A DNA stretch of 34,493 nt. It comes from Armatimonadota bacterium. Lineage in GTDB: Bacteria > Armatimonadota > Hebobacteria > CAIYQO01. Positions 7,177-23,543 of this stretch are shown in pieces. Every line of letters begins with the position of its first letter. The first letter of the stretch is position 1. The translations under genes and the position numbers were made by a program. The stretch lies in the NCBI GenBank assembly GCA_029553475.1, contig JAKPKV010000183.1, forward strand, positions 1 to 34,493, read 5' to 3'. Under the pieces are notes generated by a model. That model had not been told where the DNA came from. It worked only from the letters and a program-made list of their open reading frames with translations, and did no database searches.

Positions 7177-8193
7177 CTACCCACCGTGCAGCGCTTCCCA
7201 GTCATGAAGGGCTTCCGCGTAATATCTTACACGCGCCTTTTTGTATTCCTGCGTGGAAAACAGCGCCACTGGGGTGGGGAGGCTCACCGCGGCGGCCAGG
7301 CGGGCGAGGATCGCGAGGCACTCCTCGCGCGAGCGGGCATGCACCATGGTGAACAGATTGTACGGCCAGCCGTCGGCGCGAGGGCGCTCGTAGCAATGGC
7401 TCACCTCTTTCGCGGTCGCCAACTGGGCGCCCACCGCGGCGACGCGGTCATCGGGCACGTCCCAGATGCCCATGCCGTTGGCGGTGAAGCCGACTTTGCG
7501 ATGGCGCAAGACGGCGGCCAGCCGCCGCAGGTAGCCGCGGCCGTACAGGCGCTGGACGCCGGCGAAACAGGCGTCCGCGGTCATCCCCGCGCGCGCCGCC
7601 ATTACCGCATACGGCTCCGCGGCGATGGGGAAGGGTTCCTGCAGCAGGCGGATGAGGGCGATATCCGCATGATCGGGCGGCGTCGTGGCCCCTACAACGG
7701 CCTGGGCGGGCGCCGGGGCGCTGTCGCCGCCCACATCGAGCTGTACCGCGAGCTTGAACGTGCGCAGCGCGGGCAGCGGCGCCATGCGGCGGGCGCCGGT
7801 GAGCCGCGCGAGGATCGCCAGCGTCTCGCGCATGCCCAAGCGGCTGTCCGGCGGCAGTGCGAGGGTGAACCACAGGTTGAAGGCGTGCCCCTCGCGGGCA
7901 TAGTTGTGGCTGACGCCGGGGTGCGCGCTGATGACGGCGGCGGCGTCGTCCAGCCGTTCGGGCGGGTATATCGCCGCCGCCAGCACGGAATCGTAGCCCA
8001 GCGCGCGGGTATCGAAGAGGCCGGAGAGCTCGCGGATGAATCCGCCGTCGAGCAGGGATTGCGTCGTCGCCAGCACGTCCGTCTCCGGCAGACCGATTTC
8101 GGCGCCCACTTCGGCGAAGGGGCGCGGCGCGCGCGGCAGGTCGCGCTGCAGCCTGGTGAGCAGTTGCGTCTCGTGAACGGTGAAGTTCGTCAT
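7177..8193 (-). CDS. Fused AhbA/AhbB (NirDL-type) siroheme decarboxylase
   Basis: A 338-residue protein made of two tandem Lrp/AsnC-like halves, each a helix-turn-helix plus a ferredoxin-like domain. Half one (about 1-165) carries SHNY at 95-98. Half two (about 175-338) carries SHCYER at 265-270. These SH-x-Y stretches mark siroheme decarboxylases. The family converts siroheme to 12,18-didecarboxysiroheme, either for heme (Ahb route) or for heme d1 (NirD/L). The two subunits are normally separate or fused as NirDL; this is the fused form. No nitrite reductase or other nir gene is nearby, so heme synthesis is the likelier role. No clear ribosome site precedes the ATG. It lies 35 bases behind the M48/RidA frame and may be transcribed with it. 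Confidence 0.85.
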   Translation of the reverse strand: MTNFTVHETQLLTRLQRDLPRAPRPFAEVGAEIGLPETDVLATTQSLLDGGFIRELSGLFDTRALGYDSVLAAAIYPPERLDDAAAVISAHPGVSHNYAREGHAFNLWFTLALPPDSRLGMRETLAILARLTGARRMAPLPALRTFKLAVQLDVGGDSAPAPAQAVVGATTPPDHADIALIRLLQEPFPIAAEPYAVMAARAGMTADACFAGVQRLYGRGYLRRLAAVLRHRKVGFTANGMGIWDVPDDRVAAVGAQLATAKEVSHCYERPRADGWPYNLFTMVHARSREECLAILARLAAAVSLPTPVALFSTQEYKKARVRYYAEALHDWEALHGG

Positions 8194-8228: not shown

Positions 8229-8687
8229 TTACGCGACTTCAACGATCATGTCAACTTCAATGCAGGCGTCCTTGGGGAGCACGGCCACGCCGACGGCCAC
8301 GCGGGCGTGCGTGCCGGCATCCCCGAAAACGCCGGCGAGGAGTTCCGATGCGCCATTCAGCGCGACGGGTTGATCGGTGAACGTCGCGGCGGAGCTGACA
8401 TAGCCGGTGACGCGGACGATCTGCTTCACCCGCGACAGGCCCACGGCGTCATGCACGATGGAGAGGCAATTCAGCGCGGCCTGGCGGGCGGCGAGCTGCG
8501 CGCGTTCCAATGAGACGCTGGCGCCGACTTTTCCGGTATATTCCGCGGGCAGCGTGCCCGCGACCAGCGGCAGCTGCCCGCAGAGGTACAGCAGGTTGCC
8601 GGTGCGCACCACGGGCAGATAAATGCCGAGCGGTTCGGGAGGGGCGGGCAGGGCCAGGCCCATTTCGGCAAGGCGTTGCAGCGGCAT
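8229..8687 (-). CDS. RidA family protein from internal start
   Basis: The last 152 codons of the M48 frame form a full-length RidA/YjgF protein. It begins MPLQRLAEMG at the usual N-terminus of the ~150-residue subgroup. The body matches the family (GNLLYLCGQLPL, VTGYVSSAATF, NGASELLAGVFG, HARVAVGVAVLP). RidA proteins hydrolyse reactive enamine/imine intermediates. This stretch has its own ideal ribosome site: AAGGAGG (8701-8695) with exactly 7 bases to ATG at 8687. RidA is therefore probably made as a free protein whether or not the longer fusion also exists. Which product dominates cannot be told from sequence. Confidence 0.7.
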   Translation of the reverse strand: MPLQRLAEMGLALPAPPEPLGIYLPVVRTGNLLYLCGQLPLVAGTLPAEYTGKVGASVSLERAQLAARQAALNCLSIVHDAVGLSRVKQIVRVTGYVSSAATFTDQPVALNGASELLAGVFGDAGTHARVAVGVAVLPKDACIEVDMIVEVA

Positions 8688-9761
8688 CGGGTGACCTCCT
8701 TCGACGGGCGCCGCGGCGGGCGCGGGGCCGGCGTGAGCGGATGACGGGTTCAGTGTGCGCGTACCAATCCCGGCGCCGGGCCGCGCCGGCGCGGCTGATG
8801 GGGTGGGGAGGGCGCCCAGCCGCGCCCGCACCAGCTCCCGCGCGGCGCGGTAGGCGGCGTGATCGCGCCATTCGTGCAGATTTTTGATGCGCGTCGCGGC
8901 ATCATTGCGGATGAAGAGCAGATCGTTATAGGCCTGATTGAATCCGACTTCCTCGCCGGGGTCCACCTGGCCTTCCGCCGCGATGAAGCGGGTGATGCGC
9001 GCGCGAATCTCCCCCATGGGGAAGGTGATGACGACCTGCAGCAATACGCCCATGGTGGCGAGATTGAGGTCGGGATTGATGACCAGCGTGAGACGGTCGG
9101 CCGTGACATCCGCCCAGTGCGCCCATTCCTCCAGCGCCAGCACCAGCGGCAGGATCGGCAGGATGAGGATGCGGAGCGCGCCCTCGATCTCCGTAGTGGC
9201 CACGCCGGCGGCCAGCGGCGCCAGCGGGAGATGACCGGCGAAGACATGCCCGACCTCGTGCATGAGCAGCCAGTGCAACTGGCGGTCGTTCGTCTGCGCA
9301 TAGAGCGCCTCGGTCAGGTAGATGGCGTTCCCGGCGCTCATGAGTGCCGGGTCGCCGCCGGGGGTGATGACCACGGTGGGGATGGTCGCGAGGGGCACGT
9401 GCCGGCAGATATCATTCACCATCATCTGCGGGTGTTGGCGCGATTCCGGTACGCTCACGGAACCGCTGGCCGCCAACTGCTTCCAACTGCTGATGAGCCG
9501 GTTCATGCGCGCGAGCAGCCAGCAGTACGGGGCGAAGACCCAGAGCATGGCGGCGCCGAAGAGCACCCAGCCCACGGTGGCGGTTTTCGGATTCAGCGCG
9601 AAGGGGAGGGTGGCGCCGAGCGCGAGGATGAGGATGACGGCATTCCCGATCAGGCCTTTCAGCAGCGGCTCTGTTTCCTGGGGCACGCGCACGTGCGCCG
9701 CCTGAAGGCTGACTTCAGGAGCGGCATCGCGTTTCGCGCCGTAGGGTGTGTTGTCCGCCAC
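8229..9761 (-). CDS. M48-like membrane peptidase reading through into RidA
   Basis: A continuous 510-codon frame from GTG at 9761 (GGAG 7 bases upstream). Residues 1-355 are an M48-type metallopeptidase: two TM segments (about 36-56, 62-84), the zinc motif HEVGH (168-172) and DVTADR (218-223), where the usual third-ligand glutamate is aspartate. A further hydrophobic stretch lies at about 196-210. After a Pro/Ala-rich tail (320-357), the frame continues with no stop into a complete RidA-family protein (359-510). The product may be a real fusion, a membrane peptidase with a RidA domain in the cytosol, or the peptidase may simply have lost its own stop codon. See the internal start feature at 8687. 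Confidence 0.75.
   Translation of the reverse strand: MADNTPYGAKRDAAPEVSLQAAHVRVPQETEPLLKGLIGNAVILILALGATLPFALNPKTATVGWVLFGAAMLWVFAPYCWLLARMNRLISSWKQLAASGSVSVPESRQHPQMMVNDICRHVPLATIPTVVITPGGDPALMSAGNAIYLTEALYAQTNDRQLHWLLMHEVGHVFAGHLPLAPLAAGVATTEIEGALRILILPILPLVLALEEWAHWADVTADRLTLVINPDLNLATMGVLLQVVITFPMGEIRARITRFIAAEGQVDPGEEVGFNQAYNDLLFIRNDAATRIKNLHEWRDHAAYRAARELVRARLGALPTPSAAPARPGAGIGTRTLNPSSAHAGPAPAAAPVEGGHPMPLQRLAEMGLALPAPPEPLGIYLPVVRTGNLLYLCGQLPLVAGTLPAEYTGKVGASVSLERAQLAARQAALNCLSIVHDAVGLSRVKQIVRVTGYVSSAATFTDQPVALNGASELLAGVFGDAGTHARVAVGVAVLPKDACIEVDMIVEVA
8695..8701 (-). promoter_or_regulatory. Strong internal Shine-Dalgarno for RidA
   Basis: AAGGAGG on the minus strand, 7 bases before ATG 8687. 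It lies inside the M48 open frame, where it encodes part of VEGGHP. It is the best ribosome site in this stretch of the window and is the reason to call a separate RidA product. Confidence 0.75.
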
Positions 9762-10307: not shown

Positions 10308-11636
10308 CTACTCCAGATTTCGCTTATCGAGCACGCGTTTGGCTTTGCCCTGGCTGCGTTCGAGGGTTTGCGGCTCGACCAGCTTGACCTTCACCGAGAG
10401 GCCGAGCACGGAATGGATCTTCTTGGTGAGCAGGTCGCGCAGCACGGTCATCCGGCTGAACGATTCGGAGAACATCCGCTCGGACACTTCTACCCACACT
10501 TCCAGCGTATCCAGCGCCCCCTCGCGGGTGACGACCAGCAGGTAGTGCGGCGAGGTGCCTTCCGTCTCCATCAGCACGTGCTCGATCTGGGTGGGGAAGA
10601 CGTTGACGCCGCGGATGATGAGCATGTCGTCCGTCCGCCCCCTGACGCGGGCCATGCGCGCGGAGGTGCGGCCGCAGGCGCAGGGCGCGGTGGTGACCGC
10701 GGTGAGATCGCGGGTGCGGTAGCGGATGATGGGCAGCGCTTCTTTCCAGAGCGGGGTGACGATCAGCTCGCCGATCTCCCCTTCCGCCACCGGCTCCTCG
10801 GTGAGCGGGTCAATCACTTCCCAGAGGAAGAGGTCTTCGGCGAGATGCATGCCGTCTTTGGCGATGACGCATTCGCCGGAGACGCCCGGCCCGCAGAGCT
10901 CGCTCATCCCGTAATTATCCGTGGCGGAGACGCCCAATTCCGCTTCGATGCGCGTGCGCATGCCTTCCGTCCACGGCTCGGCGCCGAACAGGCCCAGGCG
11001 CAGATGAAGCTGCTTGCCGAGCTCCAGGCCGCGCAAACGGGCCTGCTCGCCGATGTAGGCGGCATAGGACGGCGTGGAAATGAAGACAGTCGTCCGGAAA
11101 TCTTCCATGAACATGAACTGGCGGTCGGTGTTGCCGGAGGAGACGGGCACCACAGTCGCGCCCGCGCGCTCCAGGCCGTAATGCAGGCCGAAACCGCCGG
11201 TGAACATGCCGTACCCGAAGGAGATTTGCGCGATATCGGACGCCACCACGCCGGCGAGCGACACCATCCGCGCCACCAGCTCCACCCAGGTCTCCAGATC
11301 GTTTTTGGTATACCCCACCACGGTGGGTTTGCCGGTGGTGCCGCTGGAGGAGTGGATGCGCGTCAGCTCCGCCGGCGGCACGGCAAAGAGGCCGAAGGGG
11401 TAGGTTTGGTGAAAATCCGTCTTCGTCGTATAGGGCAGCAGGCGGATATCGTCAAGACAGCGGATATCCGACGGTTTTAGCCCCACAGCGTCCATCTTCG
11501 CCCGGTAGTGCGGCACCGCGCGGTAGGTGTAGGCCACCGTCTCCCGCAGGCGCGCCAACTGCTGCGCGCGGATGTCCCCCCGGTCGGCGCATTCCCATGC
11601 CGGGGCCCAGATTTTATGCGTCAGGTTGGTGGTCAT
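10308..11636 (-). CDS. paaK: Phenylacetate-CoA ligase family protein
   Basis: A 442-residue adenylate-forming enzyme that activates phenylacetate or a related aryl acid to its CoA thioester using ATP. Visible motifs are the P-loop-like SSSGTTGKPT (96-105), the family's YGMSE (242-246), IIRYRTRD with the hinge, a CxCGRT-type cysteine pair (PCACGRT) as in PaaK, and the C-terminal QGKAKRV that supplies the adenylation lysine. It overlaps the upstream symporter gene by 4 bases (ATGA), so the two are coupled. The neighbourhood lacks the paaABCDE ring-oxidation genes. That suggests anaerobic-type or indole/aryl-pyruvate-linked use, or detoxification, rather than the aerobic phenylacetate pathway. 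Exact substrate is inferred. Confidence 0.92.
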   Translation of the reverse strand: MTTNLTHKIWAPAWECADRGDIRAQQLARLRETVAYTYRAVPHYRAKMDAVGLKPSDIRCLDDIRLLPYTTKTDFHQTYPFGLFAVPPAELTRIHSSSGTTGKPTVVGYTKNDLETWVELVARMVSLAGVVASDIAQISFGYGMFTGGFGLHYGLERAGATVVPVSSGNTDRQFMFMEDFRTTVFISTPSYAAYIGEQARLRGLELGKQLHLRLGLFGAEPWTEGMRTRIEAELGVSATDNYGMSELCGPGVSGECVIAKDGMHLAEDLFLWEVIDPLTEEPVAEGEIGELIVTPLWKEALPIIRYRTRDLTAVTTAPCACGRTSARMARVRGRTDDMLIIRGVNVFPTQIEHVLMETEGTSPHYLLVVTREGALDTLEVWVEVSERMFSESFSRMTVLRDLLTKKIHSVLGLSVKVKLVEPQTLERSQGKAKRVLDKRNLE

Positions 11637-13216
11637 ATCGTGGCTTTCTCGGGTTCGACGCGTTCCGGCTCGGCGTCGGTGAACGCTTTTGCCACCAGCG
11701 CGGCCGGCGGCGGCGGGGTGAGGAGGCTGACAACGGGGACGACGATGAGCGGCAAGAACATGGTGATGGCGCCGGCCAGCGGCACGCCCGGCTCACCCCA
11801 GAGGAGAAAGAGCGTGAGCGCGCTGGCCAGTCCCACGATGATGCCGGCGAAGACGCCCGCCCGGGTGGTGCGTTTCCAGAAGAGCCCGTAGAGGAACGGC
11901 GCCAGGAAGACGCCCGCCAGCGTGCCCCAGGAGATAATCATCAGGTTGACAATGTAGACCGGACGCAGCAGCGCGATGACCAGCGACGCCGCCACGAAGA
12001 CGATGCACATGGCGCGCATCAGCCCCATCATCCTCTTCTGGTTGGCATCGCGGTTCACGAAGGCGCCGTAGATATCCACCGCAATGGCCGAGCTGGAGAC
12101 GAGCACCAGCGACGACAGGCTGGACATTGAGGCGGAGAAGACCATCAGCACAATCACCAGCACCAGGATCATATTGATGCCGGAATGCGTGATGAAGTGC
12201 GGGATGATGACATCCCAATTGGGATTGCCGTTCTTCGCCGCGGCGATGATGCCCCCGTCGAAGAGGATATTTTTCCCGGCATCAATGGTGAAGGGCGCAA
12301 AATGCGTGAGCGCGCCGCTGTAATAGGCGCCGAAGGACATGAACAGGGCGAAGACGCCGGCGATGATCAGCGCGCGGTTCACGTCCGCCGTGCTGCGGAT
12401 CGAGTAGAATTTCTGCACCATCTGCGGCAGCGCCCACGGGCCGAAACTGGTGATGAGCACCAACGCCACCAGGGTGATCGCCCCCGGCACCATGAACTGC
12501 AGCCCCTGCGGGCCGAGCGGCGCGATCTGTCCCAGGGCCGGCGCGTAGTCGGGGGTGTTCAGCATCGTCCGCGTGGCCGCCGCAAAGCCGCCGCCCCAGT
12601 GCTGGGCCAGCACGTACACGAGGATGAGTACGCCGACGAATTCGACGATGCCGCGAATGAAGTCGCTGATCGCCACCGCGAAGTAGCCCCCCATCACCAG
12701 GTAGACGCCGGTGAGCACGGCGAGAAAGATGAGCGCTTCGTTATACTGGAGGCCGACCGTGACCTGGAAGAGGTAGCTCAGCCCCATGTAGACCGACGCG
12801 GAGTAGGGCACCAAGAAGATGAAGACGACCAGCGCGGCGACCACCTGCAGCGCCGTGCTGCCATACCGCGCGCGCAGGAATTCCGGCATGGTGATGGCAT
12901 TCAGGCGGGCGGTCATCTCGCGCGTGCGGCCCGCGAGCAGCTTCCACGCCAGGATGGTGCCGATGAGGGTGTTGCCCAGCACGATCCACAGGGTGTGGAT
13001 GCCAAACCCCCAGCCCAGCTTGCCGGCATAGCCGATGAAGAGCACGGCGGAGAAGTAGGTGGTGCCGAAGGCGAAGGCGCTCATCCAGGGGCCGAGGGTG
13101 CGGCCGCCGAGGAAGAAGTCGCCAACCGTCTTCGTGCGTTTCATGCACCAGTACCCCACGCCGAGCATCACGAGCACGTAGATGACGACGATGACGCCAT
13201 ACAGCATTGGGGACAT
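11633..13216 (-). CDS. Sodium:solute symporter (SSS family)
   Basis: A 527-residue polytopic protein with about 13 TM segments and the layout of PutP/acetate-type sodium symporters. The first helix is followed by TVGDFFLGGRTLGPWMSAFAFGTTYFSA (about 31-58), the family's unwound first-helix region, and SASMSSLSSLVLVSSS marks a later conserved helix. The 30-residue tail is charged and cytosolic. It sits between an ACT regulator gene (4-base gap) and the CoA ligase (4-base overlap). The natural reading is import of the acid that the ligase then activates. The substrate cannot be read from sequence. Confidence 0.9.
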   Translation of the reverse strand: MSPMLYGVIVVIYVLVMLGVGYWCMKRTKTVGDFFLGGRTLGPWMSAFAFGTTYFSAVLFIGYAGKLGWGFGIHTLWIVLGNTLIGTILAWKLLAGRTREMTARLNAITMPEFLRARYGSTALQVVAALVVFIFLVPYSASVYMGLSYLFQVTVGLQYNEALIFLAVLTGVYLVMGGYFAVAISDFIRGIVEFVGVLILVYVLAQHWGGGFAAATRTMLNTPDYAPALGQIAPLGPQGLQFMVPGAITLVALVLITSFGPWALPQMVQKFYSIRSTADVNRALIIAGVFALFMSFGAYYSGALTHFAPFTIDAGKNILFDGGIIAAAKNGNPNWDVIIPHFITHSGINMILVLVIVLMVFSASMSSLSSLVLVSSSAIAVDIYGAFVNRDANQKRMMGLMRAMCIVFVAASLVIALLRPVYIVNLMIISWGTLAGVFLAPFLYGLFWKRTTRAGVFAGIIVGLASALTLFLLWGEPGVPLAGAITMFLPLIVVPVVSLLTPPPPAALVAKAFTDAEPERVEPEKATI

Positions 13217-13220
13217 AGCG

Positions 13221-13637
13221 TTACAGCTCCTTCAGCTCGTCGGCGGAGACCAGGGCGATGCCTTCATCGCGCAGGATCGCTTCACCGGCATCCAGGTCTT
13301 CCATGCCGAAGGCGATGATGGACTGCACGATGGCGTAGGCGTATTCCACGTTGATGCCGCGGTCGGCCAGGCCGGCCAGCGCGCGGGCGAGGCCGCCCGG
13401 CACGTCCGGCACGCGGGCCAGCGCTATCGGGCCTTCATGCACGGTGAAATGCGCCGCACGCAACGCGTCAACCGCCCGCGCTTCGTCGTTGACGACGAGT
13501 CGCAGGATGCCGAAATCCGCGGTGTCGGCGATGCTGAAGCCGCGGATGTTGACATCGCGCTCGCCGAGGATGCGGGTGACTTCCGCGAGCCGGCCGGCGG
13601 TATTGTCCAGGAACACCGAGAGCTGGGTCACAGGCAT
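13221..13637 (-). CDS. Tandem ACT-domain protein
   Basis: A 138-residue protein of two ACT domains (about 1-70 and 72-138) with the repeated pattern AGRLAEVTRILGERDVNI and PGGLARALAGLADRGINV. ACT pairs bind amino acids or related small molecules and usually control a partner enzyme. There is no catalytic domain. Start: ATG at 13637 with an ideal GAGGAGG site. First gene of the ACT-symporter-PaaK operon. ACT proteins beside PaaK-type ligases are known in several anaerobes, so sensing an aromatic amino acid or its breakdown product is a reasonable guess. The AT-rich leader (13638-13693) presumably holds the operon promoter, but I found no clean -35/-10 pair. Confidence 0.9.
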   Translation of the reverse strand: MPVTQLSVFLDNTAGRLAEVTRILGERDVNIRGFSIADTADFGILRLVVNDEARAVDALRAAHFTVHEGPIALARVPDVPGGLARALAGLADRGINVEYAYAIVQSIIAFGMEDLDAGEAILRDEGIALVSADELKEL

Positions 13638-13743: not shown

Positions 13744-15153
13744 TCAGGCGTGCAGGCGCGCGATCCGCGGCCAGAGATGCGGGGCGATGCCCGGCGCATC
13801 GGTGGGGCCGTCCGGGGTGATGAGCGCACAGCGCGCCATGCCTGACGGGCGAGGATTGGCTTCCAACAGGAGGGGAAGAAGGCGGCCGTCATCCGCCGCA
13901 TCGAGCAAGAGGTCGAGCCCGATGAGCGCGGGCATGGCAGCGCCGAGCTCCTGCGCCAGCGCGTCAGCGCCGCGCGCGGCGGCCATGAGGAGGCGCGTCC
14001 AGTCATCGTGGGCGGGGGTGAACGGGCGGCCGTCCGCGCGGCAGAGGCGGCGCCAGAGGTCGCCCAGGGCGATGACGCGGCCGCCGCGCCCGGCGGAGGC
14101 GATGCCGTGCGGGCCGGCCAGTTGGGCGTAGCCTGACTCCGGCCAGGCGCGGGCGCCGTCCCAGCAGACGTTGACGCGGAGCACACACCGCGCCGGACCC
14201 GTGTCGGTGCGCGCGTGCACGGTGCCGCGCTCTTCCGTCAGCAGGGCGGCGTCGCCGAGGTGGGCGAGGTGGCGGAGGGCCGCCGCGCGCCGCGCGGGCT
14301 GCCGCAGGTCAAAGCAACCGACCCCGCGGCCCTCGGTGCCGTCCACGGGTTTGATGACGAGGCGGGGGCCGTGCGCGGCGATGAACGCCGCCAGCGCATC
14401 GCGCGCGTCGTCGCCGGCCGGCATGGCCCAGGCCGGGGTCGCCAGGCCGGCGCGCTGCCAGCAGGCGGCGGTCCGGGCTTTGTCGTCGAGGAATGCGGCG
14501 CCGTCGGGCGGATTCAGCAGCGGCACGCCCGGAAGCAGCGCGGCAGCGCGGCGATGGTCGGCATGCTCCCGGCGGAGATCGAGGCCGAGGGCCTGCGCGC
14601 TGGCCGGCGCGAGCGGGGCGGCCAGCGGCGCTTCGTAGAGCAGGTCGCGGTCCACCGCGAAGGTGATGGCGCGCGTCATACGGCCGGCGCGGAACCAGTC
14701 GAGATGTACGCCGACGACGCGCAGCGCCGGCGCGGCAACGCCGGCGTCGAGCAGCAGCGGGTAGAGTTCGTGCGTGATGTGCGGGAACGCGGAAAAGACG
14801 AGGGCATGCGCCGGTCCCGTCAACGGTTGCGGCGCGGGCAGGAGCAGCAGCGGGGGCGCCAGCGGCTCCCCGGCACAGGCGTCACGCGCCAGGTCTATGA
14901 CGCGGGAGGCGGTCGGCGGCTCGTAGAGCCATGACGCGGCGAGGGGGTGATCCGCGTTTTCGGCGGCGGCCCGCAGTGAGCGCAACGCGGTTTCCGCCTG
15001 CGCGCGGGAAAATTCCCCTTCGCGCAGGCGTTCCGCCAGGGCATAGGAAAGGGCGACGCCGAACACCTCCGGGGGGAGATGCTCGGCGCTGACACCCAGC
15101 TCGGCGCCGGCGCGCGCGGCGCCGGCGTGCAGTGCGTCGTTCAGGGAGCGCAT
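13744..15153 (-). CDS. ATP-grasp ligase, substrate unknown
   Basis: A 469-residue protein. The C-terminal half is a RimK/GshB-like ATP-grasp: DDK (223-225) opening the domain, the nucleotide lysine in LVIKPVDGTEGRGVG (265-279, Lys268), Arg326 in VLRVNVCWDG, Asp414 in IGLDLLLD and the metal pair in LLEANPRPSG (Glu431, Asn433). The N-terminal 200 residues form an unrecognised helical and alpha/beta region. Such enzymes join a carboxylate to an amine or similar nucleophile through an acyl phosphate. Its ATG overlaps the stop of the giant gene (TGATG), so translation is coupled and the two products are probably equimolar or in complex. Substrate and product not deducible. Confidence 0.8.
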   Translation of the reverse strand: MRSLNDALHAGAARAGAELGVSAEHLPPEVFGVALSYALAERLREGEFSRAQAETALRSLRAAAENADHPLAASWLYEPPTASRVIDLARDACAGEPLAPPLLLLPAPQPLTGPAHALVFSAFPHITHELYPLLLDAGVAAPALRVVGVHLDWFRAGRMTRAITFAVDRDLLYEAPLAAPLAPASAQALGLDLRREHADHRRAAALLPGVPLLNPPDGAAFLDDKARTAACWQRAGLATPAWAMPAGDDARDALAAFIAAHGPRLVIKPVDGTEGRGVGCFDLRQPARRAAALRHLAHLGDAALLTEERGTVHARTDTGPARCVLRVNVCWDGARAWPESGYAQLAGPHGIASAGRGGRVIALGDLWRRLCRADGRPFTPAHDDWTRLLMAAARGADALAQELGAAMPALIGLDLLLDAADDGRLLPLLLEANPRPSGMARCALITPDGPTDAPGIAPHLWPRIARLHA

Positions 15154-18100
15154 CAGCGTCGGGTAATGGCCTCCAGATAGTCTTCCCCGGCTTTCGCCAT
15201 GTCATGCAGCACGATGCGCGCCTGGGCGCCGACGGCGGCCCAGTCGGGGGTCTCCGCCGCGCGGACGGCGTAGAACTCCTCGCGGATGGCCAGGCGGTCC
15301 CAGAGGCCGATGCCGATGTTCGGCTCGATGAGCACCACGCGCCAGTCGCGGACGTGGCCTTCGCAGCGCTCCTCGCCGTGCTGCAGGATGAAGCGCGCGC
15401 CGGCGCGCTCGCCCGCCGCGTCAAAGCGCGGCTCCACGTCCACCAGGATGCCCTCTTCGGCGAAGATCGGCTGCACGATGAAGTCCAGCATCATATAGCG
15501 CGGCACCGAGTACGGCAGGCCGGTGGCGTCGCGGCCGACGGCGCGGCCGGTTTCCGCCGTGTACTGGTCGGCGGCCACCTCGCCGTAGCGGGCCAGCGCC
15601 GCCATCGCCTTCTCGCCGGCCTCGACCAGCCGCCGCATGAGCAGCTCGCGATGCGCGGGCTGGATGAACTCCGGCTTGAAGATCTCCAGCGTGCCGCCGC
15701 GGCCCACGTTCGTGATGAGCTGGCGGCTGTTCAGCGTGATGGGATGCGACACGTGCCAGGCCTGGGCGGCCGGATCCGCGCTGGAGAAGACCAGGCGGTG
15801 CGAGCCGTAAATGGCGGTGCGCGGGCGGCGGGTGCGGTTCACCACCGCGCCCCACTCCTGGATCTGCCGATCCGTGAACGAGCGCAGGAACTCCTCCGTC
15901 GCCCAGTATTCGGGCGAGGAGATGATGACTTCCTGGATGGCGATGTTGTGCTTCAGGGTGATTTGGTAGGCGAAGTCCACCGCCTCGGCCAGCGCCGCGT
16001 CGTCCGGGGCGCCGTCCTCGCCGCGCAGGGCGAACACCTTCTGGCCGCGCCCGCCGGACTCCGCCGCGTCTTTGAGCATCACCAGCCGGAAGCGCTCGGC
16101 GAATGCGCGCAGGCCGGGGAAGCCGCGGTCGGCGTCGCCGAACTCCAGCGCCGCGCGGGTGGCCGCTTCGCCCAGCTCCGCCGTCCAGGCCGCCAGCCAG
16201 TCAATCTCACCCGGCAGCTGCACGCCCGTCTCGGCGCGGAAGATGTCGGGGTACTTCGCCTTGTCGTAGGTGGTCCAGGTGTGGAAAAGGCTCTGACTGG
16301 AATAGGGCAGGCCGAGCGCTTCCAGGCGCCCGCTGTCGTAGAGCGGATGCCCGTGCATCGGGAAGATCAGGCCGGCGGTCACCGGTTTGGTGAAGTACGC
16401 CGCGACGCACACGCCTTTCGGGCCGACGTGCTCGTCCGCCAGCGCCTCCGCCTGGGCCGGGGTGAGGCCATTGTGCTGCTGCAGGGCGGCGATATATTCC
16501 TCGCGGCTGATGTAGAGATGCGCGTGGCGCACCTGCAGCACCGGGCGGCGCATGGCGTCCAGCGTCACCTCTTCCGCGTGGCGGGAGATGAGGAGGTTGG
16601 CGCCGGGGCGCCCCTGCGCCCGCAGCTCGTTGGCCAGCGCCGGGCCTTCCATCAGCGCCCGCGAGACGTGGGTGCGGCCCACCGGGTAGAGCAGCAGCAT
16701 GTTGACCCGCGCGTCGGCGTTGATGATCGCCGGGTCGAAGGCGGAAAAGAGCCGCGGGAGGGCGAAGCCGTCGTTGCGCATGAAGGCGATTTCCCGCAGT
16801 TTGGTGAAGGCGCGCCAGCGGCGCTCGGCCGGCGAGTCGCCGTTCTCGCCGATGGGCACCGTGCTCCCGTCGCCGTCCATGTCGCCGATGAGCGCCGCCA
16901 ACTGCTCCGGCGTATACTCCCGCAGCTCGGTGAAGGTGAGCGCCAGCGTGCGCAGGTAACGGTATATCGGCGTATAGTGCTCCACTGCCAGTTCGTACAG
17001 CGCCTCGCCCTGCACGTGCGTGAAGCCGTCGCCGCGCGTATACGCCCACGGCCGATACTGGTAGAAGTGGTCGTTGACGAATTCGGCGAAGAAGTCGGCC
17101 ATCGCCCGCCAGACGATGGTCGGATTGTCCGGCGTCACCACGTAGAAATCAATGGTGAGCAGGATGCCGCGGCAAGTGTCGAACAGCTCGGCGAGGTCGG
17201 CCACCTGCGCCAGCAGGCGGTCGCGCTCGGCCTCATCAATCGTCCCGTCGCGCAGCATGGCCGCCACCGTGCCGCCCAGCCGGGCGATATCGCCCGGATC
17301 CTCGTAGCCGCCGCTGATGGCGCGGATGGCCATCATGTCCACGTCGCGCCCGGTCAACAGCGTCTCCGCGTGGGACCGGATGCGCCCCAGGTACTCCGGC
17401 TCCTCGCCGCGGGTGAAGATGTCGCCGCCCAACTCGGCGAGGGAGAGGCGCAGCAGCGCGAGCATGGTGCCGATACGGCTGGTGATCGGCGTGGTGTCAT
17501 CAGCGCCGGCCGCGCGCGCCGCGTCCATCATCGCCGCGAACGGTTTCCCGCTGTAGGCCTCCAGCGCCGCGAGGAAGGCTTTCTCGCGGTCACTCATCCC
17601 CCGGGCGCGGGCGGCGCGCTCCCGCAGGCGCTTGCGGGTGTCAATGGCGACCACCGCCACCTCTTCCGTCGCTTTGTTCGAGCTCTCCACGCCTTTCTCT
17701 TCGCGGAAGGTTTCCGCCGCCGGCACGCAGGCCGGGCAGTAGAGGGCGTCAATGGCCGCCGGGTCGGCGGCGGGGGCGGCGCCGCCCAGCGCGGCGATGC
17801 CCGCTTGGAAAGCGCGGCGCGCCTCCTCCAGCTTCGTGGGCGCGGCGCCCATCAACAGGAATTGCCCGCCCAGCGCCAGCCAACTGGCGAAATCCAATTG
17901 CGCCAGCGGCAGGCCGGCGGCGATGCTCGCCAGCGCGCGCGCGGTGGCCTGTTCCTGCGCCGTCTGCTTGCCGAAGCGCAGCATGCGCTCCTCGGTTTCG
18001 AGGAAGAGCGCCGATTCCTGGTCGGCCTGCAGATCCTGGACGATGGCGGCATAGCGCTCGCGGGCGCCGGCCGCGTCGCCGCCGGCCAGCGCGGCGAGGA

Positions 18101-21100
18101 GCGCCTGCGCGCGGTTGCGCTGGTGGCGCATCTCCTCGCGCCAGCTTTCGATGGTGTCCGCGCCCACGCCCACGCAGCGGTAGAGGGCGTTGCGGCCCAC
18201 CGCTTCGCCGGCGGCGAACCAGCGCATCACCGCCAGGCGGTTCAGCGCGCGATGGCGGGAGCCGGACGCGCCGTCCATGATGATGAGCGCGCTGTGCGGA
18301 TTGCCTTCCAGCATCATGTCGCGCACGCGCACCGGGTTGTCGAGCAGCGCCAGCAGCTCGTCGTGCGGGATGCCGGTGTCGAGCACGTCGCCGCCCTGCA
18401 CCGCCATCTCAAAATTCCCCGCCGGGCCGATGATGCTCAACGCCAGCGCGTGGATATCGCCGCCGATGCGGCTGATGAGCGCCTCCTTGGCCTCCGAGGG
18501 CAGCTCGCGCACCTTCGTCCAGCGCGCCAGCCGCGGCCCGTACACCAGCATATTGGCGGTGATCTCGTTCTCGGTCAGGCCGATCTCCATCAGCCGCCGC
18601 TGTACGCCCATCGCCAGCGGCTCAAGCTGGGTGTCGCTGGTGTAATGCAGCAGGTCGGCGGTGGTGAGCATCATCGGGGAGACCATGCGAATCTCGCCCG
18701 CCGCCTTGCAGCCGGGGAAGAGCGCGCGCAGCCGGGCGAGGCTCTCCTCGTCGTCCTCGCGCACCTGCAGCTCCGCCAGCAGGCGGCTGAGGCGGGCGCG
18801 CAGGCGCGGATCATCGCGATGCTGCCAGAGGCTGTCGAAGCCGTGGAACATCAGGTGCGCCAGGTCCTGCCCGGCGGTGTCCAGGGAATAGGCCAGATGC
18901 TCGCCGGTGCCGGCGAAAAGCTCGTACTTGCGCATCCCCACCGAATAGCGGCCGTCCTGGGTGTTCGGCTTGTACTCCGCCTGCAGCACCACGGAGAAAT
19001 CGTCCTCGCGGATCGCCACCTCGGGATTGAGGCGCTTCGCGTCGGCCAGCGCCTGGTAGGTGAGCCAGACTTTGAAGAAAGTCATGAAACGGTTCACCTG
19101 CTCGCCGCCGACGATGACTTTATGGATGCCCCAGCGCGCCGCCAGGTTGGCGAGCACGTCGAAGGACTCGCGCAGCTCGGGACGGCCGAGCTGGGTCAGC
19201 GCCCGCGCGATGCGCGTCACCTGGAAGACGGGGACGGGCTCGCCGTCGCCCTCGCGCAGCGTGAAGAAGGCGTTCAGCTCGCGCCGCTCGTGCACCAGCG
19301 TCATCGCCCACGCCTCCCACTCGATCTCCGTGGCGAAGGTCCCCCGCCGCGCCAGCAGGTACTCGGAGAAGGCGACGATGCCCTGGTGCAGGTGGTCGGG
19401 CACGCCGAGCTGCCGCAGTTTGGTGGCGCGGGTGAGGATGAGCACGAACTCCAGGAAGAGGCCGTCCTTCGGCACGCAGTAGCCGCCGTACCCCTCGCCG
19501 CCGGGGCGGATGAGGCGGTCCTTGCGGAGGCTCATCTGGTCGCCCAGGTCTTCGATGTCGCCGCGGCCCACCGCGTTGACGAGCAGGCTCATGGCGTTCG
19601 AGTAGGCGAAGAGGGCGACCATGGAGGCGTTCTCCCCGGTCTTGATGACTTCGGGCTCGGTGAGGCTGTCGAACATCTTCACGTTCTTGTTGATGAGGCC
19701 GTAGACGCGGCGGCCGACGCGCGAGCCTTCCCGGTCGGCGCCGCCCACCCACTGCGACCATTTTTCCACCGACTCGCGCTCGTGGGTGCCCAGGTCCACG
19801 CGGCTCGGCGTGTAGAGCTGATTGAAGCGCTTGTTGCCGCCGGCGGCGCGGTAGTAATACAGCGGGTGGAGCGTCAGGTGATGCAGCCCGTGCGCCAGCA
19901 GCGTCTCGCGGCGGGCGGTGGTGAGGGCCAGCCGGGTGTGGTTGCGCAGCCACTCGACGGCGCGGGCGGCAAGCTGCAACGACGGGTCGGCGGCGTCCAT
20001 CTCGCGCAGCGCCATCTCGCGGGCGGCGAAGTGGGTGAAGGCCGCCAGATCGTCCGCGTAGTCCGGATTGGCGAGGACCAGCGCCCGAATGGCCGCCGCC
20101 TCATCGGCCTCCGGGTGGGCGGCCAGGTAGGCATCCACCTGCGGCAGCAGCTCCAGGTCGTTGCGTTCGTAGACGGCGTGAATCGCCCGCGCCTGCGCGT
20201 CCGCGGCGCGGGACGCGAGCAGTGCATCCACCAGCGGGGCATCCGTCCCCGTCTCCAGCCCGACGTGCTCGCCCAGCACGGCCATCAGGCTGAGCTGGCG
20301 CGCGATGATCGCGTTGCCGGCGATGATGCGGCCGATGGCGGCCCCTTCCGGCAGGCGCTCCAGCGCCATCAGCTCTTCCACTTCCGCCCACATGCCCAGC
20401 TCGCGGATGAAGAGCGCGCCGAGTTTGGTGATCGTTTCGCGATACGCGGCCATGCGGTCGCGCACTTCGCCGTCGAGGTCGTGGGCGCGAATGACGTTGC
20501 CCAGCGCCATGGACTCTTCCAGCCAGGTGCGCACGTAGCTGTCGCTCATGCGCGCGGACTGCGTGGTGAGCACGTGCAGGGTGGGGAGGGCGCGGCGCGG
20601 CAGGTGGGCGATGGCCGCCAGCCGTTTCGCCTCCGCGCGCACCGCGTCATCCAGCGCCGGCGCCGATTGCAGCACCGCCAGCGCCTCCGCATATTCGGTG
20701 GTGCCGTTCGCCCGCGCCTGCTTCGCGATGGCGACCACCAGGCAGTGCGGGTGATCGTTCTGCAGGTTCTCCAGGATGATCGCGCGCAGCGTGTCGTAGC
20801 GGGAGAGGCCCTCTCGTTCGGCGCGCAGGTGGATGGCCTCGGCGAAGGTGCGATAGGCGAAGGCGATCATCGCCGCCAGCGCGCCGACGCCCTCCGCCAG
20901 GCCGTGCGCGGCCACCGCCGCGGCGCGGGCGGCGTCCGGGCCGGCCAGCCGCGGGTCGGTCCGCGCCAGCCATTCGCGAGCCAGCGCCACGTGCTCGCTG
21001 TCCATCACGTTCTCGATGCCCTTCGCCCAGTGGTCGGCGAACTGCTCGCGGAAGGTCTCTTCGAGAATCTGCTGGTCAATCACCGTCTCGGTGACTTCCA

Positions 21101-22493
21101 CGCCGTCCACCACCAGCACGCGCTCCTTGATGAAGAGCGGGATGGCTTCCACCCAGTGGTCGGCGTATTGCAGCCAGGCGTAGTCGGGGCTGGCATACAT
21201 GCGGTGCCCGCCCTCGCGCGCCAACTGCTTCAGGTTTTCCGGCTTGCCGAGATAGGGTTCCTGCAGCTCGTTGATGCGCACCATCAGGTGCGATTCCAGC
21301 GGGGCGAGGCGCTGGCTGAGCAGCACGAAGGCGGCGGGGCGGCGGGCGGCGGCGAGCAGCGCCTCGCGCAGGTCGCCGCAGCGGCCCAGCAGCTTTTCCG
21401 TCTCCGCCATGATGGCGCTAGGGGTGGCCGCCGGCGTGTGGCCCTCGCGCTCGGCCTTCAAGGCGGCATCAATGCGCGCGCGCTGCTCATCGAGGATGGC
21501 GTCTTCCAACAGCTCCAGCGCGCCGATCACCGCGGTCTTCGGCGCCTCGTGCGCGCCCTGCAGCATGGTGCGCAGGCGATCGGCGGGCGGGGCGAGGCGC
21601 GGCGTCCCCACGCAGGCGGCCACCAGCGCGCCAACCTTGCCGCGAATGTCATCGCTCAACTGCACGTAGCCGGCGTTGGCAAACAGCAGCGACTGATTGT
21701 GGAACGCGCGGCTCATGCGGCCGAAAATCAGCTCCTGCCCGCGGGCGCGCACGTCCGCCACGATGCGCTCGCGGTTCTCGCGCTCCGTCGCGTAATCGTA
21801 CTGGGTGACGATGTCGTGCAGCAGGACGCGCTTCTCGTCGGGGTCAATATCCGCCGCGAAGATGTCAATCACCGCCTTGCGGTCGTAGGGCAGATCCACC
21901 CGGCGCTGGCCGAGGAACCAGCTTTCCCAGCGCACTAGCTCTTCGGCGTCATGCTCCGCCGCGGCGCGGCGCAGGTAGAGCCCGGCGAGGCCGCCCGCGT
22001 CAACGTCGGCGGTCAGCGCCGCCTGCACCGCCCGCCGCGTATCAGCCGGGAGCGCGCGATAGCGCTCGTGCACCGCGCGCAGCGCGGCGCGTACCGATCC
22101 GGTCTTCACCGCGGTCAGCGCGGCGACCCAGGCCAGCGCCAGCGCCGCGACGGAGGCGATGCCCGGCGCGGCATCCGCCGCCAGGCCGGCCGCGTCCACC
22201 TCGATCGGGGCGCGATGCCCGGCGTAGAGGGCGAGGGGATAGGCGCCGTCGCCCGCGCCGTCCAGCCAGGCGGCGGCCAGCGCCAGCGCCTCCAGGTGGG
22301 CGGCGTCCAGCGCCAGATCGCTGCTGACCCGGTCACCGGTCAGGGTCAGCGTGCCCGCGCCGGCGGGCGCGCCGGCACGCCGGCAGGCACGGCTGACGCC
22401 GCCGTCACCGGGCAGCGCGCGGGTGAGCAGCGCGAAGGGGAGAAATTCATCAAGCCGAGCGGCGGGGGGGACGGCGATCTGGGTCAAACTCAT
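15153..22493 (-). CDS. Giant 2446-residue protein with C-terminal ATP-grasp-like region, family not recognised
   Basis: By far the longest gene here and not one I can name. There is no signal peptide or TM segment, so it should be cytosolic. Residues 1 to about 1000 look mostly helical. A central part holds striking conserved-looking stretches such as GGNKRFNQLYTPSRVDLG, GYGGYCVPKDGLFLEF and ALIIMDGASGSRHRALNR. One CPAC motif lies about two-thirds along. Near the C-terminus VMLKDAAESGGRG (Lys2141, glycine-rich loop 2146-2150), IQEVI (Glu2188, 47 residues on), TNVGRGG and VLIEPNIG (Glu2390, Asn2392) follow ATP-grasp order and spacing. The start ATG at 22493 has no clear ribosome site. It overlaps the ATP-grasp gene (TGATG) and is divergent from an AraC regulator. 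Coding is intact for 7.3 kb. Confidence 0.85.
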   Translation of the reverse strand: MSLTQIAVPPAARLDEFLPFALLTRALPGDGGVSRACRRAGAPAGAGTLTLTGDRVSSDLALDAAHLEALALAAAWLDGAGDGAYPLALYAGHRAPIEVDAAGLAADAAPGIASVAALALAWVAALTAVKTGSVRAALRAVHERYRALPADTRRAVQAALTADVDAGGLAGLYLRRAAAEHDAEELVRWESWFLGQRRVDLPYDRKAVIDIFAADIDPDEKRVLLHDIVTQYDYATERENRERIVADVRARGQELIFGRMSRAFHNQSLLFANAGYVQLSDDIRGKVGALVAACVGTPRLAPPADRLRTMLQGAHEAPKTAVIGALELLEDAILDEQRARIDAALKAEREGHTPAATPSAIMAETEKLLGRCGDLREALLAAARRPAAFVLLSQRLAPLESHLMVRINELQEPYLGKPENLKQLAREGGHRMYASPDYAWLQYADHWVEAIPLFIKERVLVVDGVEVTETVIDQQILEETFREQFADHWAKGIENVMDSEHVALAREWLARTDPRLAGPDAARAAAVAAHGLAEGVGALAAMIAFAYRTFAEAIHLRAEREGLSRYDTLRAIILENLQNDHPHCLVVAIAKQARANGTTEYAEALAVLQSAPALDDAVRAEAKRLAAIAHLPRRALPTLHVLTTQSARMSDSYVRTWLEESMALGNVIRAHDLDGEVRDRMAAYRETITKLGALFIRELGMWAEVEELMALERLPEGAAIGRIIAGNAIIARQLSLMAVLGEHVGLETGTDAPLVDALLASRAADAQARAIHAVYERNDLELLPQVDAYLAAHPEADEAAAIRALVLANPDYADDLAAFTHFAAREMALREMDAADPSLQLAARAVEWLRNHTRLALTTARRETLLAHGLHHLTLHPLYYYRAAGGNKRFNQLYTPSRVDLGTHERESVEKWSQWVGGADREGSRVGRRVYGLINKNVKMFDSLTEPEVIKTGENASMVALFAYSNAMSLLVNAVGRGDIEDLGDQMSLRKDRLIRPGGEGYGGYCVPKDGLFLEFVLILTRATKLRQLGVPDHLHQGIVAFSEYLLARRGTFATEIEWEAWAMTLVHERRELNAFFTLREGDGEPVPVFQVTRIARALTQLGRPELRESFDVLANLAARWGIHKVIVGGEQVNRFMTFFKVWLTYQALADAKRLNPEVAIREDDFSVVLQAEYKPNTQDGRYSVGMRKYELFAGTGEHLAYSLDTAGQDLAHLMFHGFDSLWQHRDDPRLRARLSRLLAELQVREDDEESLARLRALFPGCKAAGEIRMVSPMMLTTADLLHYTSDTQLEPLAMGVQRRLMEIGLTENEITANMLVYGPRLARWTKVRELPSEAKEALISRIGGDIHALALSIIGPAGNFEMAVQGGDVLDTGIPHDELLALLDNPVRVRDMMLEGNPHSALIIMDGASGSRHRALNRLAVMRWFAAGEAVGRNALYRCVGVGADTIESWREEMRHQRNRAQALLAALAGGDAAGARERYAAIVQDLQADQESALFLETEERMLRFGKQTAQEQATARALASIAAGLPLAQLDFASWLALGGQFLLMGAAPTKLEEARRAFQAGIAALGGAAPAADPAAIDALYCPACVPAAETFREEKGVESSNKATEEVAVVAIDTRKRLRERAARARGMSDREKAFLAALEAYSGKPFAAMMDAARAAGADDTTPITSRIGTMLALLRLSLAELGGDIFTRGEEPEYLGRIRSHAETLLTGRDVDMMAIRAISGGYEDPGDIARLGGTVAAMLRDGTIDEAERDRLLAQVADLAELFDTCRGILLTIDFYVVTPDNPTIVWRAMADFFAEFVNDHFYQYRPWAYTRGDGFTHVQGEALYELAVEHYTPIYRYLRTLALTFTELREYTPEQLAALIGDMDGDGSTVPIGENGDSPAERRWRAFTKLREIAFMRNDGFALPRLFSAFDPAIINADARVNMLLLYPVGRTHVSRALMEGPALANELRAQGRPGANLLISRHAEEVTLDAMRRPVLQVRHAHLYISREEYIAALQQHNGLTPAQAEALADEHVGPKGVCVAAYFTKPVTAGLIFPMHGHPLYDSGRLEALGLPYSSQSLFHTWTTYDKAKYPDIFRAETGVQLPGEIDWLAAWTAELGEAATRAALEFGDADRGFPGLRAFAERFRLVMLKDAAESGGRGQKVFALRGEDGAPDDAALAEAVDFAYQITLKHNIAIQEVIISSPEYWATEEFLRSFTDRQIQEWGAVVNRTRRPRTAIYGSHRLVFSSADPAAQAWHVSHPITLNSRQLITNVGRGGTLEIFKPEFIQPAHRELLMRRLVEAGEKAMAALARYGEVAADQYTAETGRAVGRDATGLPYSVPRYMMLDFIVQPIFAEEGILVDVEPRFDAAGERAGARFILQHGEERCEGHVRDWRVVLIEPNIGIGLWDRLAIREEFYAVRAAETPDWAAVGAQARIVLHDMAKAGEDYLEAITRR

Positions 22494-22541
22494 CGGTTCT
22501 GGCAGGACCGGGCAGGCGGTCCAGCTCCTCTCGTGCGATGT

Positions 22542-22557
22542 GTGCCGAAATCGGCAC
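22542..22557. promoter_or_regulatory. Palindromic operator or leader hairpin at the giant gene's start site
   Basis: GTGCCGA-AA-TCGGCAC, a 7-bp perfect inverted repeat with a 2-base centre. It lies directly at the predicted transcription start of the giant operon (about 22558), so a bound repressor would block the promoter. In RNA it would be a 5' hairpin. Its core CCGATTTCGG recurs in the yhbY-M48 gap (9848-9857), which may be chance. Confidence 0.4.
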
Positions 22558-22564
22558 CGTGAAC

Positions 22565-22593
22565 AGTATAGACGCGGCGGCGGAACCGGTCAT
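22565..22593 (-). promoter_or_regulatory. Promoter of the giant protein / ATP-grasp operon
   Basis: On the minus strand ATGACC (22593-22588), 17 bases, then TATACT (22570-22565). The -10 is good and the -35 matches at four of six positions, as expected for an activator-helped promoter. Predicted start about 22558, with a leader of about 65 bases to the ATG. Confidence 0.5.
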
Positions 22594-22602
22594 TAGATAT
22601 TA

Positions 22603-22630
22603 TTGCCAATCTATGGTATGATCTTGCCAA
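22603..22630. promoter_or_regulatory. Paired TTGCCAA repeats, likely AraC-family binding site
   Basis: TTGCCAA occurs at 22603-22609 and again at 22624-22630, in the same orientation and 21 bases apart (two helical turns). This is the usual geometry for an AraC-family dimer. Seen from the giant operon the repeats fall at about -45 and -66, right for activation. Seen from the regulator gene they cover its likely -10 (TATGAT, 22617-22622), right for self-repression. Confidence 0.5.
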
Positions 22631-22652
22631 CTTACCGACGGAGGATGCGCGC

Positions 22653-23543
22653 ATGCCAGACCGGTCCCCGCTCTTTTCCCCGCTGCCCGAGCTGCGGCGG
22701 CGGTGCCGGAGACTCGCGCGCGCGGCGAAAGACTATACGCTGGACGGCCATCGCCTGACGATCCATGATATTCGCATCCATCAAAAGCGCGAGGGGAAGG
22801 CGACGCTGGAGCACGTGCATTCTTTCTACGAAGGGCACGTGCTGTTAAGCGGCGTGGGCCGCTACGCGATGGGGGAGCCGCAAACGCTGAGGCCGGGCGG
22901 CGCGCTGCTGCACGGGCCACATACGCCGCATGCCTGGGCGGCGTCGGATGTCTCCTGCGTGCGCCTGCTCGTCTGGTTCGGCCTGGAGCCGACGATTCCC
23001 GCGCCCCGCCCCGCCGCCTGGCCGGAATGGCCCGATCTGCTGTGGGATCTGTCGCTGCTCTTCGCGGACGCGGCGGCGACAGCGCCCGGCTGGCAGACCC
23101 GCGTCACCGCTCGCCTTTCCGTGGTATTTTCCCGCCTGCTGACGATCATCAATTGGCCTTCCACGCCACAGCCGGTACGGGAACCGCAGCCGCACCTGGT
23201 GACGATGGTGGACCAATTTCTCCAGGATAATCTGGCGCGCCCGTTGACGCTGGACGACATCGCCGATCACGTGAGCATCAGCCAGCGCACGCTGTGCCGG
23301 CAGTTTCAGCACCGCACCGGCGCCACGGTGATGGAGCGGCTGGAGACCCTGCGCATGGATCGCGCGGCCGCGCTGCTGGCGGAGACGGAGGCCACGCTGA
23401 AAGAGATCGCCGAGGCCATCGGCATGACGGACGCCTCCTACTTCTGCCGGCGCTTCCGCCAGCATTATCACGTGACGCCGAATACCTACCGGCAGGATGT
23501 CGGGGCGCGCGCGCGTCGCGAGGAACGCACGACGACGGTGTAG
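22653..23543 (+). CDS. AraC family transcriptional regulator
   Basis: A 296-residue regulator. Residues about 30-100 are a cupin-like sensor with His54, His56 and His93 in the expected beta-barrel positions (LEHVHSFYEGHVLL, PGGALLHGPHTPHAW). Residues about 182-285 are the double helix-turn-helix of AraC (LTLDDIADHVSISQRTLCRQFQ and LKEIAEAIGMTDASYFCRRFRQHY). Proteins of this shape usually sense a small sugar or metabolite and bind direct repeats. Start: ATG at 22653 with GGAGG about 8 bases upstream. It is divergent from the giant operon, with a 159-base shared region, so that operon is its most likely target along with itself. The ligand is unknown. Confidence 0.9.
   Translation: MPDRSPLFSPLPELRRRCRRLARAAKDYTLDGHRLTIHDIRIHQKREGKATLEHVHSFYEGHVLLSGVGRYAMGEPQTLRPGGALLHGPHTPHAWAASDVSCVRLLVWFGLEPTIPAPRPAAWPEWPDLLWDLSLLFADAAATAPGWQTRVTARLSVVFSRLLTIINWPSTPQPVREPQPHLVTMVDQFLQDNLARPLTLDDIADHVSISQRTLCRQFQHRTGATVMERLETLRMDRAAALLAETEATLKEIAEAIGMTDASYFCRRFRQHYHVTPNTYRQDVGARARREERTTTV

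Follow-up and report, generated by a model that had tools for sequence, protein, structure and literature searches.

A giant protein with a nucleotide-sugar dehydrogenase-like core and its ATP-grasp partner in Armatimonadota and the Latescibacterota group

UDP-glucose and GDP-mannose dehydrogenases (TIGR03026, PF00984), which include UGDH, WecC and Cap5O, are the closest described relatives of the giant protein analyzed here. In human UGDH, Cys276 forms a thioester that is stabilized by Lys220, Asp280 holds water, and the E161Q mutant was crystallized with a thiohemiacetal trapped (PMC3184952). The giant shares the order and motifs of the central domains of these enzymes, including the catalytic Lys, Asn and Cys and the C-terminal nucleotide-sugar Arg motif, but it is 5-6 times longer, has no detectable NAD domain, carries a Ser in place of the PE[RF] Glu and contains an insertion of ca. 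110 residues that splits the central domain from the UDP-binding segment. Its score in a single-sequence scan was far under the family cut-off (TIGR03026, E 2e-12, 46.4 versus 189.8 bits). The product of the adjacent gene shares its core and catalytic Lys, Arg, Asp and Glu-x-Asn residues with ATP-grasp carboxylate-amine ligases such as D-Ala-D-Ala ligase, RimK and ATPgrasp_ST (PF14397), and the C terminus of the giant also resembles this region of the partner. The partner differs from known ATP-grasp ligases in falling under every curated cut-off, in having its own N-terminal domain and in going with the giant, with one exception. Genes like those of the fucokinase and galactokinase (GHMP) salvage enzymes adjoin the ligase or giant gene in most relatives, but no nucleotidyltransferase was found beside these kinases and the pair studied here has no adjoining kinase.

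Each recognizable domain of the giant belongs, as judged from profiles, to a known superfamily. The open-access literature on ATP-grasp proteins with nucleotide-sugar dehydrogenases, on Latescibacterota and on giant proteins yielded no description of the architecture, of NAD-domain loss in a protein of this size or of the near-obligate ligase partner. What emerges is a large, conserved family of proteins and a system of two genes, neither of which is covered by the annotation libraries used here.

Gene organization and regulatory region

The window is a 34,493-nucleotide stretch of Armatimonadota DNA. The 7.3-kb giant gene, the overlap of its stop codon with the ATP-grasp start and the 159-bp gap to the divergent AraC-family gene all lie where the original prediction placed them:

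13744-15153, minus strand: ATP-grasp ligase gene, 469 aa, near-obligate partner of the giant (ORF, profiles, co-occurrence)
15155-15151, minus strand: TGATG stop/start overlap from giant to ATP-grasp gene, one shared base
15153-22493, minus strand: giant gene, 2446 aa (ORF, homologues, dN/dS)
22603-22630, plus strand: probable AraC operator, direct repeat TTGCCAA-N14-TTGCCAA with 21-bp spacing, conserved in the genus
22653-23543, plus strand: AraC-family gene, 296 aa, cupin-like N-terminal domain, divergent to the giant (ORF, Pfam)

A Shine-Dalgarno-like GGAGG for the ligase gene occurs inside the last codons of the giant gene. The giant is a genuine gene: its GC content by codon position is 0.73/0.47/0.92, dN is far below dS, which indicates purifying selection, and homologues of full length occur in both bacterial groups surveyed. 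Comparison with the copy of the same-genus relative, found on contigs of Armatimonadetes bacterium UR.bin144, gave a dN of 0.09, a dS of 0.65 and a dN/dS of ca. 0.14 over 819 codons. Antisense to the giant lies an ORF of 2268 aa (15132-21938, plus strand). It was rejected as a gene because its codon-position GC is the mirror of that of the giant; it is a high-GC shadow that is open to mis-annotation. No structured RNA was found between positions 13000 and 25000.

The assignment of the divergent gene to the AraC family was borne out by the C-terminal double helix-turn-helix (HTH_18, E 2.9e-22); the AraC_binding domain scored 20.7 bits against a cut-off of 21.1. The regulator had been thought to belong to the system, which does not hold. 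A close AraC homologue adjoins the giant in the window's genus only, and no other giant lineage has an AraC protein of this kind; a 28%-identical AraC protein near one distant giant (G348, L117) was left out of this count. We therefore rejected AraC as a core member and regard its gene as a genus-level accessory, the minimal system being the giant and the ATP-grasp gene.

The other genome of the genus retains the AraC gene and the conserved gap, whose length is the same. Conservation within the gap is highest in a block that contains the TTGCCAA-N14-TTGCCAA repeat, of which each of the two genomes has a single exact copy. A 21-bp spacing is the usual geometry of AraC half-sites. The giant has a promoter-like -35 element (22593-22588), and the putative operator lies ca. 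10 bp upstream of it, a position that would be compatible with activation of the giant by AraC. This exact and unique repeat in both genomes lends indirect support to the proposal of a small-molecule switch.

Domain anatomy and a proposed ATP-driven reaction

Regions and residues of the giant are as follows (all on the minus strand):

20004-22493: residues 1-830, predicted mostly helical with low to moderate confidence
19434-19841: residues 885-1020, catalytic central domain of NDP-sugar dehydrogenases (profiles, alignment)
19803-19805: Ser897, invariant, at the place of the PE[RF] Glu
19641-19643: Lys951, invariant
19629-19631: Asn955, invariant
19476-19478: Cys1006, invariant
18909-19106: residues 1130-1195, sugar-nucleotide-binding C-terminal domain with the motif AEYKPNTQDGR (profiles)
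18948-18950: Arg1182, invariant nucleotide-sugar Arg
16824-18896: residues 1200-1890, helical by prediction, with a conserved SAL-DG-SG motif near 1401-1411
15156-16766: residues 1910-2446, probably a second ATP-grasp module, on moderate evidence

The giant had been described as matching no named family. This was wrong for about 310 residues, the dehydrogenase-like core, and probably for about 530 more at the C terminus. Profile comparisons identify residues 885-1195 as the catalytic domain plus the UDP-binding domain of an NDP-sugar dehydrogenase. The PF00984 match of the whole giant in a single-sequence scan was weak (23.2 bits, cut-off 25.4). A 20-member giant alignment put the assignment on firm ground: its profile detected the dehydrogenases 3g79 (E 2e-9) and 4r16 (E 3e-8, with the UDP-binding segment covered) in the PDB. 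When hhalign was run with 12 dehydrogenases of this phylum as reference, the core aligned over 237 columns with a probability of 99.2% (E 9e-20), and the four remaining segments of the giant stayed at noise level. The K-x(2-3)-D-x-R motif of the UDP-binding domain is present in the second segment aligned with 4r16 and the UGDH profile. Lys951, Asn955, Cys1006 and Arg1182 are invariant among the 20 homologues, and the acid four residues after Cys1006 is Asp, or Glu in a second subfamily.

The hhalign match starts at reference residue 143, which is the end of the NAD domain of the reference, and continues through the catalytic and UDP-binding parts. Upstream of the core neither an N-terminal NAD-binding Rossmann domain nor a GxGxxG motif could be aligned by profile-profile comparison. 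The stretch where the NAD domain would be expected, residues ca. 650-875, is predicted to be helical (AlphaFold pLDDT ca. 60-88). The PE[RF] catalytic Glu is absent from all 20 homologues, which have the invariant Ser897 instead; from the alignment and the family motif we read this position as that of human UGDH Glu161.

The 469-aa partner is, by profile evidence, a true ATP-grasp protein, as originally predicted. Its profile matched 25 PDB chains at E ≤ 0.01, nearly all of them ATP-grasp ligases and with D-Ala-D-Ala ligases at E 1e-7, and the conserved Lys, Arg, Asp and Glu-x-Asn are intact in the family alignment. The score against ATPgrasp_ST was 27.8 bits (cut-off 31.4). Moderate evidence points to a second ATP-grasp module at the C terminus of the giant. 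The 20-member alignment shows no variation at Lys2141, Arg2233, Asp2337, Glu2390 and Asn2392, which correspond to the Lys, Arg, Asp and Glu-x-Asn of ATP-grasp enzymes, and hhalign of this region against the partner family gave E 1e-4 with a probability of 58%, with all other segments of the giant at noise. Pfam matches were weak, to ATPgrasp_ST in 3 of the 20 members and to GSH-S_ATP in one.

About two thirds of the giant, ca. 1600 residues, match nothing and are largely helical by prediction. Searches for relatives outside the giant family found none for residues 1-830, whose invariant motifs include GRMSRAF, DHWIEAIPLFIKE and HVLTT, and none for residues 1200-1890. AlphaFold models of both halves, built with 7-8 sequences, were poor (mean pLDDT 51 and 46), and a Foldseek comparison of the C-terminal half with PDB folds returned nothing reliable. 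The domain calls therefore rest on sequence profiles, which may miss an NAD site of unusual sequence, and the models were used solely for the helical character of residues ca. 650-875. The statement that the giant lacks NRPS/PKS, kinase and transport motifs agrees with Pfam and NCBIfam scans, which gave such readings no support; they were rejected.

An NAD-less dehydrogenase active site that is co-inherited with an ATP-using ligase suggests that the two proteins probably join some group to a sugar acid using ATP instead of NAD. The anatomy of the giant fits an enzyme that keeps the acyl-cysteine half of UDP-glucose dehydrogenase but has ceased to use NAD. Our main reading is an ATP-driven, NAD-independent ligase system that acts on an NDP-sugar acid with the old active-site Cys as acyl carrier, to which we assign a probability of roughly 0.35. 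In the scheme we infer, which extends to enzyme activity, substrate, product and complex formation as well as to thioester and amide chemistry, the giant and the ATP-grasp protein would be one enzyme system with a sugar acid on a nucleotide (or a sugar 1-phosphate) as substrate. The core would keep the acyl-forming Lys, Asn and Cys and the nucleotide-sugar Arg after loss of the NAD domain. The C-terminal ATP-grasp-like module would convert the sugar carboxylate to an acyl phosphate, and Cys1006 would receive the acyl group as a thioester, as known in UDP-glucose dehydrogenase. Release by an amine, not by water, would give an amide, and the absent hydrolytic Glu would favor such transfer. The partner ligase may add or prepare the amine-bearing group, with AraC switching the operon in the window's genus. 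This agrees with the expectation of a biosynthetic or modifying system.

The most specific form of this scheme, a rewired NAD-free dehydrogenase site at which the fused ATP-grasp module and the ligase charge a sugar acid on the ancestral Cys for transfer to an amine, is doubtful as a whole; if true, it would imply that two bacterial phyla make sugar-acid amides or conjugates of a class not known before. The chemistry, if true, would show a way from a redox enzyme to an acyl transferase driven by ATP, with the covalent intermediate retained, and would point to a sugar-acid conjugate new to science in Armatimonadota and Latescibacterota. The proposal can be tested directly, thanks to the near-strict pairing and the catalytic cysteine.

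Another possible, if tentative, reading is that the dehydrogenase-like core is a noncovalent platform for a sugar nucleotide, with a helical scaffold and two ATP-grasp modules ligating onto the bound nucleotide sugar or glycan. The missing NAD domain and the large unmatched, mostly helical part of the giant would fit this, but Cys1006, Lys951 and Asn955 are invariant across ca. 30% identity, which binding alone would not require. It is unlikely that the giant is still a dehydrogenase with a diverged or separate NAD domain, oxidizing an NDP-sugar to a uronate that one or both ATP-grasp modules then amidate. The retained Lys, Asn and Cys are consistent with such an enzyme, as is the acidic residue that follows Cys (Asp, with Glu in the second subfamily), whereas the lack of an aligned GxGxxG or NAD domain upstream, the helices predicted in its place and the replacement of the catalytic Glu by an invariant Ser argue against it.

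Co-inheritance of giant and ligase

A sensitive survey covered 291 Armatimonadota genomes and 64 genomes of the Latescibacterota group. Six of the 291 have the giant, and exactly the same six have the ligase, adjoining the giant in each case (0 of 285 without giant); in one of them (G001) the contig end falls within the ligase gene. The giant was found in 20 of the 64 Latescibacterota-group genomes; a genome of 1.6 Mb (G296) has only a fragment. The ligase is present in 19 of these 20 carriers, 18 from the search and one (G348) from BLAST of its locus, and in 1 of the 44 others, G297 being the sole genome of the 64 with ligase but no giant. A profile search of giant-less genomes, run with no positive control alongside, was empty.

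In 16 of the 25 pairs the giant and ligase genes are direct neighbors, and in five genomes (G350-G354) they overlap by 4 nt in the style of an ATGA junction. In five others (G061-G065) they lie on separate contigs with different neighbors; as both are retained, the functional link outlasts the physical link. The giant and ligase trees broadly agree and their pairwise distances correlate with r 0.80. In one genome (G336, L154:2071-2100) the genes found on either side of the pair in relatives are separated by only 28 bp and both giant and ligase are cleanly absent, as expected if the pair is gained or lost as a unit. Giant and ATP-grasp gene are thus a real dedicated unit, as had been proposed. 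Counting how often giant, ATP-grasp and AraC genes stay together, as the original prediction suggested, gave near-strict association for the first two and an adjoining AraC gene in one genus only.

The giant of the window groups with the Latescibacterota type (47% identity) and is only 30-32% identical to other Armatimonadota giants, which suggests that its lineage acquired the pair horizontally. A pattern-based scan of 85,000 species revealed no close relatives outside Armatimonadota and the Latescibacterota group except on one Gemmatimonas-labeled contig. The giant encoded on this contig (CAMAVQ010000010.1, titled Gemmatimonas phototrophica) is of the Latescibacterota type, and the genome is likewise grouped with the Latescibacterota set; the public label looks wrong.

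A defense, toxin or immunity function in place of metabolism is very improbable. The patchy occurrence in Armatimonadota (6/291) and the horizontal history would suit it, but PADLOC gave no match for giant or ligase of either subfamily, synteny is stable in the Latescibacterota group, and neither plasmid matches nor viral contig relatives were found, for which reason a phage or plasmid origin was also rejected. That giant and ligase are unrelated neighbors co-transcribed by chance is hardly credible. Their location on different contigs with differing surroundings in five genomes would suit it, but even these genomes have both, one genome (L154) lacks exactly both between the same flanking genes, and Fisher tests of co-occurrence, counting genomes as independent despite kinship, gave p ca. 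1e-12 for Armatimonadota and 4e-14 for the Latescibacterota group.

Two giant genes are interrupted, by an in-frame stop and a frame change (L003:6848-6958 and L004:16507-16510), through assembly error or decay. One genome (G255, L052:13891-15081) has small ORFs between giant and ligase, one encoding a HEPN-domain protein, that look like an inserted HEPN/MNT-type pair.

Sugar kinases and other neighboring genes

The GHMP kinase that adjoins the pair in most relatives is fucokinase-like in Latescibacterota-type loci (NCBIfam E 1e-38) and galactokinase-like in second-type loci (E 3e-44). Sugar phosphorylation by fucokinases and galactokinases is at the anomeric position, a hint, and no more, that a free sugar is where the pathway begins. 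Nine genomes keep the fucokinase-like gene in the absence of the giant, and relatives of the galactokinase-like type are more widespread in the phylum; a kinase as strict third member was rejected. Its association with the pair is suggestive because two unrelated kinase subfamilies occupy the same place. The adjoining kinases of two kinds speak for the ATP-driven scheme, and the persistence of the fucokinase-like type without the giant and the lack of a kinase beside the pair in the window speak against it.

Downstream of the ligase (10308-13637, minus strand) the window encodes a protein with a pair of ACT domains, a sodium:solute symporter and a PaaK-like AMP-ligase, apparently an operon for aryl-acid uptake and activation, which elsewhere does not accompany the pair. 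Two copies of a siroheme-decarboxylase/AsnC-type domain (NirDL-like) are encoded at 7177-8193 (minus strand), with no obvious heme d1 cluster around. The product of 8229-9761 (minus strand), a protein of 510 aa, combines two unusual companions: a YjgF/RidA-like domain at the C terminus and, nearer the N terminus, a weak match to M48 peptidases.
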